NCBI GenBank assembly: GCA_015232315.1
Contig: JADFZZ010000005.1
Span: forward strand, 62,001 to 126,000
Direction of reading: 5' to 3'
Source of the DNA: SAR324 cluster bacterium
GTDB taxonomy: Bacteria > SAR324 > NAC60-12
DNA length: 64,000 nucleotides
Shown here: in pieces, positions 18,643 through 48,651 of the stretch
Layout: each line of letters starts with the position of its first letter
Numbering within the stretch: the first letter of the stretch is position 1
The notes under the pieces: generated by a model
Seen by the model: the letters and a program-made list of their open reading frames with translations, nothing else
Told to the model about the DNA's origin: nothing
The model's database searches: none
Position numbers and translations under genes: made by a program

Positions 18643-18683
18643 ATTTTCCTGTTTTTGAACAATCCCCTCAAAAACAGGAAAAT
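18643..18683. repeat. 16-bp perfect inverted repeat downstream of dnaJ
   Basis: The arms ATTTTCCTGTTTTTGA (18643-18658) and its exact complement (18668-18683) flank a 9-base loop. The A/T tracts lie inside the stem and no T-run follows, so it is not a canonical terminator, although it may act as one. It lies in the 371-base gene-free stretch between dnaJ and etfB. Confidence 0.7.
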
Positions 18684-18873: not shown

Positions 18874-18904
18874 CAGTTTTTCATCATGTTTTTATGAAAA
18901 ACTG
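18874..18904. repeat. 11-bp perfect inverted repeat upstream of etfB
   Basis: The arms CAGTTTTTCAT (18874-18884) and ATGAAAAACTG (18894-18904) flank a 9-base loop, about 65 bases before the etfB start. It could be an operator or an RNA hairpin in the etf leader. No regulator can be assigned. Confidence 0.6.
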
Positions 18905-47424: not shown

Positions 47425-47488
47425 TGACTATTCCGCGATACTTTCCGGAAAAGTCATGACTATTTCGGAATTTTTGTCGAAATAGTCA
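47425..47488. promoter_or_regulatory. Two abutting 32-bp palindromes upstream of the DUF4143 ATPase gene
   Basis: Unit 1 (47425-47456) has arms TGACTATTCCG and CGGAAAAGTCA with one mismatch; unit 2 (47457-47488) has arms TGACTATTTCG and CGAAATAGTCA with none. Each unit has 11-base arms and a 10-base centre, and the units touch with no gap. They end 35 bases before the start codon. An operator pair for a self-regulating gene is the simplest reading. Confidence 0.75.
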
Positions 47489-47523
47489 CATCCACATTTC
47501 GTCCACTGTTTGGAACAATCATT

Positions 47524-48651
47524 ATGGAAAGAGCACTGACGCCATATCTTAAAGAATACATGGACCGCAAAATCATTCTGTTAACGGGACCACGCCAATC
47601 CGGTAAAACCACCATTTCTAAAATGATCACTCCAGACTATGACTACTTGAACCATGACAATCATGAGCATCGATTGCTGATCCGTGAAAAGGCCTGGGAT
47701 CGTAGCAAGGAACTGATCATCCTGGATGAACTGCACAAGATGAAAGATTGGAAAAGCTGGTTGAAGGGGATTTATGATACGGAAGGACTGACTCCCAAAA
47801 TTCTGGTGACCGGTAGTGCTAAACTGGATACCTACCGAAAAATGGGAGATTCGTTGGCGGGACGTTATTTTCAATATCGTCTTCATCCCCTGGATATTCG
47901 GGAGATCAGTCAGATTGAAGGGAAGCAGGACCGAACCCTGACTCAGCAAATGATTCGCACGGGAGGTTTTCCTGAGCCCTTTCTTGAAGGCACTGAAACT
48001 TTTTACAATCGCTGGAAGCGATCCCATTCGGATATCATCCTGCGTCAGGATATGCTGGAACTGGAAAGTCTGCAAAATATCAGCACCATTGAAACCCTGA
48101 TCCAGTTGTTGCGACAAAGGGTGGGGTCTCCTGTTTCATGGAATTCCCTGGCCAGAGATTTGGGGTGCAGTGACAAGTCTGTCAAAAAATGGGTCCAGAT
48201 TCTGGAGGAAATGTATGTCATTTTTCAGATCCATCCCTTCCATCGCAATGTGGCGCGCGCATTGCTGAAATCACCCAAAATCTATTTTTATGATACCGGT
48301 CAGGTCTTGGGGGATTCTGGCAGTCAACTGGAAAATATGGTGGCATGTTCCCTGTTGAAGGAAATTCACTTCAGGCAGGACTGTTTAGGGCAGAACTACG
48401 ATTTGAATTATGTACGCACAAAAAATGGACAGGAAATCGATTTTTTGATCACCCATGATGAAGAACCGGATACCCTGATTGAGGTCAAGTGGGCGGATGA
48501 TCAACCTTCCCGACATTTTAAATTTTTCAGCCAATACCTTCCAATTCAGAGGCAGATTCAACTGGTTGAAGAATTGAACCGAGAAAAAACATATCCGGAA
48601 GGTCTTGAAATCCGCAAAGTCAACCACTGGTTGTCTGAAATGCCGTTTTAA
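47524..48651 (+). CDS. AAA-type ATPase with DUF4143 C-terminal domain
   Basis: A 375-residue protein of the widespread AAA_14/DUF4143 family, whose cellular role is unsettled. Walker A is GPRQSGKTT near 22-30, Walker B LIILDEL near 65-71, and sensor-like VTGSAKLD near 96-103. A winged-helix-like segment (SWNSLARDLGCSDKSVKKWVQ in part, about 200-220) precedes the C-terminal DUF4143 region. That region contains EIDFLI...LIEVKW, resembling a PD-(D/E)xK nuclease-type core. Such genes are often mobile and patchily distributed. It stands alone behind a pair of palindromes at 47425-47488. Confidence 0.85.
   Translation: MERALTPYLKEYMDRKIILLTGPRQSGKTTISKMITPDYDYLNHDNHEHRLLIREKAWDRSKELIILDELHKMKDWKSWLKGIYDTEGLTPKILVTGSAKLDTYRKMGDSLAGRYFQYRLHPLDIREISQIEGKQDRTLTQQMIRTGGFPEPFLEGTETFYNRWKRSHSDIILRQDMLELESLQNISTIETLIQLLRQRVGSPVSWNSLARDLGCSDKSVKKWVQILEEMYVIFQIHPFHRNVARALLKSPKIYFYDTGQVLGDSGSQLENMVACSLLKEIHFRQDCLGQNYDLNYVRTKNGQEIDFLITHDEEPDTLIEVKWADDQPSRHFKFFSQYLPIQRQIQLVEELNREKTYPEGLEIRKVNHWLSEMPF

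Follow-up and report, generated by a model that had tools for sequence, protein, structure and literature searches.

Genes and palindromes at the locus

Within the window (the whole 64,000-nucleotide stretch of the SAR324 cluster bacterium contig that was analysed), two abutting palindromes lie directly in front of a gene encoding an ATPase fused to a predicted nuclease domain (Table 1). The product scores well above the curated cut-offs for AAA_14 (87.8 bits vs 27) and DUF4143 (102.5 bits vs 28.1), and residues G22, G27, K28, D68, E69, E270, D306, E320 and K322 are invariant or at least 90% conserved. An AlphaFold2 model built with 60 homologues (mean pLDDT 92.6) comprises an AAA core, a winged helix-turn-helix (wHTH) predicted with high confidence and covering approximately residues 186-255, and an alpha/beta domain at the C terminus. 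In Foldseek searches, the full model resembled STAND, RuvB and ORC ATPases, and the C-terminal part gave weak matches to SmtB/MarR-type repressors for the HTH and to EcoT38I and McrB-McrC for the nuclease. A sequence search of solved structures with the window protein returned no convincing match.

Table 1. Features of the window around the ATPase-nuclease gene.
Feature	Coordinates	Strand	Remarks
Palindrome unit 1	47425..47456	+	Half-sites 1 and 2; 11-bp arms with one A/A mismatch
-35-like hexamer ATGACT	47456..47461	+	Overlaps half-site 3; placed by homologue alignment; 4/6 match to TTGACA
Palindrome unit 2	47457..47488	+	Half-sites 3 and 4; perfect 11-bp arms; covers predicted promoter
-10-like hexamer CGAAAT	47478..47483	+	16-bp spacer; AGTC of half-site 4 directly after
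GGAA, Shine-Dalgarno-like stretch	47512..47515	+	Leadered-type gene
AAA_14 + DUF4143 ATPase-nuclease gene	47524..48651	+	375 aa; PADLOC PDC-S01, E 1e-56
AAA+ ATPase domain (residues 1-120)	47524..47883	+	Walker A G22..G27 K28 and Walker B D68 E69 invariant
wHTH (residues 186-255)	48079..48288	+	Predicted operator reader; Foldseek SmtB/MarR-type repressors
PD-(D/E)XK-type nuclease domain (residues 265-371)	48316..48636	+	E270, D306, E320-x-K322 invariant or nearly so

In domain content, HMM matches and the fusion of an ATPase to a PD-(D/E)XK domain, the window gene corresponds to PDC-S01 of PADLOC. A 2026 survey describes PDC-S01 as such a fusion and a candidate single-gene system, ranks it fourth in frequency among the defence systems of prokaryotes, and notes that experimental validation, antiviral activity included, is pending for most PDCs (PMC12988326). 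The window gene product is a predicted anti-phage protein. We rejected carriage of the gene by viruses, as no near relative turned up on viral contigs. The text of the survey nowhere mentions promoters, palindromes or autoregulation, and the promoter-embedded four-site operator proposed here is an addition to its description. In the open-access literature examined, DUF4143 is listed in a table of one paper; we found neither a mechanism for PDC-S01 nor an account of such an operator, so an earlier report is possible.

A sequence-only reading of the window had pointed out the two palindromes, described them as touching units with 11-base arms within 100 bases of the start codon, and interpreted them as a cooperative operator or a recombination site. 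Both units were recovered at the positions that it gave, meeting without a gap at 47456/47457 and spanning -99 to -36 from the ATG at 47524. The 11-base arms hold for both, although they are perfect only in unit 2 (TGACTATTTCG-GAATTTTTGT-CGAAATAGTCA, as arm-centre-arm) and contain one mismatch in unit 1 (TGACTATTCCG-CGATACTTTC-CGGAAAAGTCA). Two properties had escaped that reading: unit 2 contains a sigma70-like promoter geometry, and the junction AGTCA/TGACT is itself a third dyad centre. The element therefore has four half-sites (GACT at 47426 and 47458, AGTC at 47452 and 47484), all of them best taken as copies of a single sequence, GACTATTYCGG.

The window has about five perfect dyads with 11-bp arms and loops no longer than 14, and 2 of 12 dinucleotide shuffles also yielded such a dyad, so that a lone dyad is only mildly unusual; the abutting pair with a common half-site is no chance event. 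No mismatch-free copy of the half-site was found elsewhere in the window, and the paired layout occurs only once in the whole 5.25-Mb genome. Two further perfect hairpin-like dyads with arms of at least 11 bp lie in AT-rich DNA at 18646-18680 and 18874-18904, and are unrelated to the element in sequence.

The promoter of the window gene is less obvious by itself. Its -10-like hexamer matches TATAAT at three of six positions, which is weak alone, and was assigned by alignment with homologues that mostly have CATAAT, CAGAAT, TAAAAT or TATAAT there; at the position of the -35-like hexamer, homologues mostly have TTGACT. A generic promoter score applied without the family alignment did not pick out this promoter. 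The match of the hexamers themselves is poor, and the assignment depends on the relatives. The first base of the -35 lies 68 bp from the ATG and the -10-like hexamer at -46, rather than the approximately 12 bp 5' of the ATG expected for a leaderless mRNA, leaving a leader of about 33 nt. From these sequence features, the window gene appears to be a leadered variant with a weak promoter.

Conservation of the element and its lock to the promoter

We analysed the upstream regions of about 240 homologues, in a first set of loci, then in previously unused genomes, and then in a second replicate composed of high-scoring members and enriched for the window's own clade. Start codons were set by homology and not by the promoter, and many of the genomes are drafts. 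Dyads with a score of at least 12 within 120 bp upstream were present in 31 of the 126 first-set genes and in 10/62 genes of the new genomes, compared with 2/186 segments taken far upstream and 1/116 control genes from these loci. A conserved upstream element, which the sequence-only reading had said would be informative, does exist, and the two findings named there as speaking against it were not made: palindromes of this kind are present at other DUF4143 genes, and the rest of the genome has no further copy of the motif. Since around 60% of the members have no dyad with a score of at least 9 upstream, the putative self-operator, at the cut-offs used, belongs to only part of the family; it is most pronounced in the clade that includes the window gene.

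Among close relatives the layout GACT-n22-AGTC-NT-GACT-n22-AGTC is invariant, and the alignment of four half-sites holds down to approximately 35% protein identity; the four-site arrangement is found upstream of related genes across many bacteria. The motif itself is highly similar between close proteins only, falling to background level below about 35% identity. The exact TGACTATT is not a family-wide signature; what is family-wide is the architecture only. A search of 383 genomes with the exact four-site pattern found five loci, one per genome, all directly upstream of DUF4143 genes, and the backward pattern used as a control gave zero matches. Two viral contigs that also match the pattern were discarded as apparent chance coding matches, with no DUF4143 gene on the stretches examined.

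In some relatives the symmetry goes further. L046 (-79..-16), L006 (-63..-6) and L052 (-98..-37) have near-perfect palindromes with 28-31-bp arms, in which the spacers between half-sites are also symmetric, beyond what an operator needs; template-switch correction between the arms is perhaps responsible.

The palindromes occupy a fixed place with respect to promoter hexamers. Of the 188 family genes, 40 have TTGAC at -36 to -34 relative to the ATG (2.1 expected; controls 2/116), a result reproduced in the new genomes (10/62 vs 0.5 expected) and in the second replicate, with its larger share of the window clade (23/54 vs 0.55 expected). Similarly, TA...T was present at -12 in 53/188 family genes (4.5 expected; controls 3/116), in 14/62 genes of the new genomes and in 19/54 of the second replicate. 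Together, these positions predict a transcription start at the ATG, and thus leaderless mRNAs, in many genes. In close relatives, half-site 3 overlaps the -35 (NTGACT) and half-site 4 directly follows the -10 (NNNAAT then AGTC).

In order to locate the symmetry relative to the promoter, we tested 135 centres in the 72 genes having an NTGAC-n17-NNNNNT anchor. Symmetry was highest at three of them, +0.5, +16.5 and -15.5 bp relative to the -35, with means of 6.9, 6.3 and 5.8 of 14 pairs (median of all centres 4.0, sd 0.5). Lying 16 bp apart, they are the three centres of the window element with its two abutting 32-bp units. The 32-base period noticed in the window is therefore a property of the homologues as well, where the layout is locked to the -35 and -10.

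Among the 26 genes with four sites, the -35 lies 34 or 35 bp from the ATG in 18, for which the promoter predicts a leaderless mRNA, and 46-94 bp away in the remaining 8, six of which have a Shine-Dalgarno-like stretch. The spacing between element and promoter is constant at either distance, so it is the promoter that the palindromes track and not the ATG. At the centre, 20/26 of these genes have the dinucleotide TT, a break in symmetry required by a TTGAC -35.

Divergence of the half-sites and the winged helix

The sequence of the half-site differs between subfamilies, and even paralogues checked within one genome have different palindromes. Large paralogue sets occur in this family, with about 17-30 DUF4143 genes in each of the genomes G094, G051, G048 and G049. 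When 40-residue segments of the protein were compared with the half-site after correction for identity, the best tracker was residues 183-222, in the HTH (partial r 0.30; over all segments, mean 0.05, sd 0.11). The whole HTH gave a partial r of 0.25 and the recognition helix alone (214-226) one of 0.07. Residues 205 and 217 ranked first and second of 330 columns for covariation with the half-site. In the 26 four-site genes, D217 accompanies CGG-type half-sites (TCGAT once), E217 accompanies CCGC, and P217 goes with GCA in 3/5. These values are suggestive of a half-site that covaries best with the wHTH, if modestly, phylogeny being only roughly controlled.

A putative self-operator and its alternatives

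A dyad element overlaps the gene's own promoter and is conserved in orthologues, and it is specific to the family, with 5/5 exact matches at DUF4143 genes; both are features of an autoregulatory operator. Moreover, no neighbouring gene common to most loci, whether a regulator or not, was found in the flanks, which makes the product the natural candidate binder. On these grounds we consider it probable that the element combines the promoter of the DUF4143 (PDC-S01) gene with an autoregulatory operator to which the ATPase itself binds. The four GACTATTYCGG half-sites would form two abutting 32-bp dyads across the -35 and -10, to which the product would bind through its wHTH, as dimers or as a tetramer. 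Once bound, it would shut out RNA polymerase and repress its own transcription, which may hold a potentially harmful ATPase-nuclease scarce until it is required and some signal relieves the repression. The protein may also have a role in phage defence. A period of 32 bp, about three helical turns, would place all sites on one face of the helix and favour cooperative binding. The binder could nevertheless be a protein other than the ATPase, and the layout of the element would also suit an activator.

The main alternative, an operator for an unlinked regulator such as a host repressor of defence genes, seems unlikely to us. It has a precedent in known defence repressors such as CapW, which are separate proteins binding palindromes in defence promoters (PMC9122588). 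However, the motif occurs once in the window's genome, at the DUF4143 gene, and half-sites vary among paralogues of one genome and diverge with the DUF4143 protein, whereas a shared host regulator should produce one motif per genome. Such private motifs disfavour an unlinked regulator, as does the lack of a regulator gene common to the flanks.

Of the two possibilities raised by the sequence-only reading, the operator is strengthened by conservation and the lock to the promoter, and the recombination site found no support. The palindromes might have marked the ends, or served as targets, of a mobile DUF4143 cassette in transposition, recombination or homing, with its own nuclease domain perhaps doing the cutting. 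The presence of that domain, the patchy and multicopy distribution of DUF4143, the long perfect palindromes of L046, L006 and L052, and the Bacteroidetes relative L036, with palindromes on both sides of its gene (AAAACTATTTGTCA-type, at upstream -55..-21 and downstream +5..+39), would all be compatible with this. Yet no matching palindrome lies near the 3' end of the window gene to serve as a second end, the element is single-copy in the genome, and its distance to the -35 and -10 is fixed in all close relatives, a constraint that a target site would hardly require. We therefore rejected this reading as very improbable.

An RNA hairpin in the mRNA leader, acting as an attenuator, riboswitch or antisense-type control, is still harder to sustain and was likewise rejected. 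Inverted repeats lying 5' of coding sequence are able to form RNA structure, but 18/26 four-site genes have a predicted start at the ATG, which would leave the palindrome untranscribed, and among mismatches in the dyads G-T and A-C are about equally frequent (8 vs 7). Both the recombination site and the hairpin fit worse than an autoregulatory operator. The least credible proposal is a replication-initiator-like site, at which an AAA+ and wHTH protein akin to ORC/Cdc6 would bind repeats in order to initiate replication or to load other proteins: ORC/Cdc6 and RuvB are among the Foldseek neighbours, but with low TM-scores (0.24-0.35) equalled by STAND and clamp-loader proteins, no replication genes adjoin the locus, and the promoter lock would be left unexplained.

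An autoregulatory operator of this kind would have parallels in several known systems. CapW and BrxR, the WYL-domain repressors that control CBASS and BREX, likewise act at palindromes within defence-gene promoters and keep expression low when cells are uninfected (PMC9122588); those are separate regulators, whereas here the sole candidate binder is the putative effector. As in type II toxin-antitoxin systems, palindromic sites within the promoter would serve to restrain the potentially toxic product, but from a single gene, with no antitoxin partner in the flanks, and with DNA-binding and effector domains in one chain. Lambda CI at PRM is an autoregulated repressor with tandem operators and a leaderless mRNA, and shares with the present case the repeated dyads over its own promoter and the leaderless transcript, predicted here in many relatives. 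It is not homologous, and differs in being a dedicated repressor and not an AAA+ ATPase-nuclease with a rigid 2 x 32-bp array.

More speculatively, and with considerable doubt, DUF4143/PDC-S01 might be a one-gene immune switch, in which a private four-site operator holds a DNA-bound pool that is both repressor and sensor and is released by infection. Leaderless mRNA in many relatives would then allow resupply when translation initiation is disturbed, and private half-sites would prevent cross-regulation between paralogues.

A promoter-locked self-operator would provide a first testable handle on the widespread and uncharacterised PDC-S01. It predicts that the wHTH reads sequence and specifies the exact DNA for each protein, and further predicts autorepression, along with leaderless mRNAs in much of the family. 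Pairs of half-site and wHTH could also supply a set of orthogonal repressors.

The layout of the self-operator may extend beyond DUF4143, to the ATPase_2 family (PF01637). About 6 of the 15 genes of this other ATPase family that were examined have palindromes just 5' of the ATG (L304, -61..-7; L293, -57..-9; L309, L297, L302 and L305), five of them with scores of at least 9 near the start, and in L304 a TATAAT is placed as for a leaderless mRNA.
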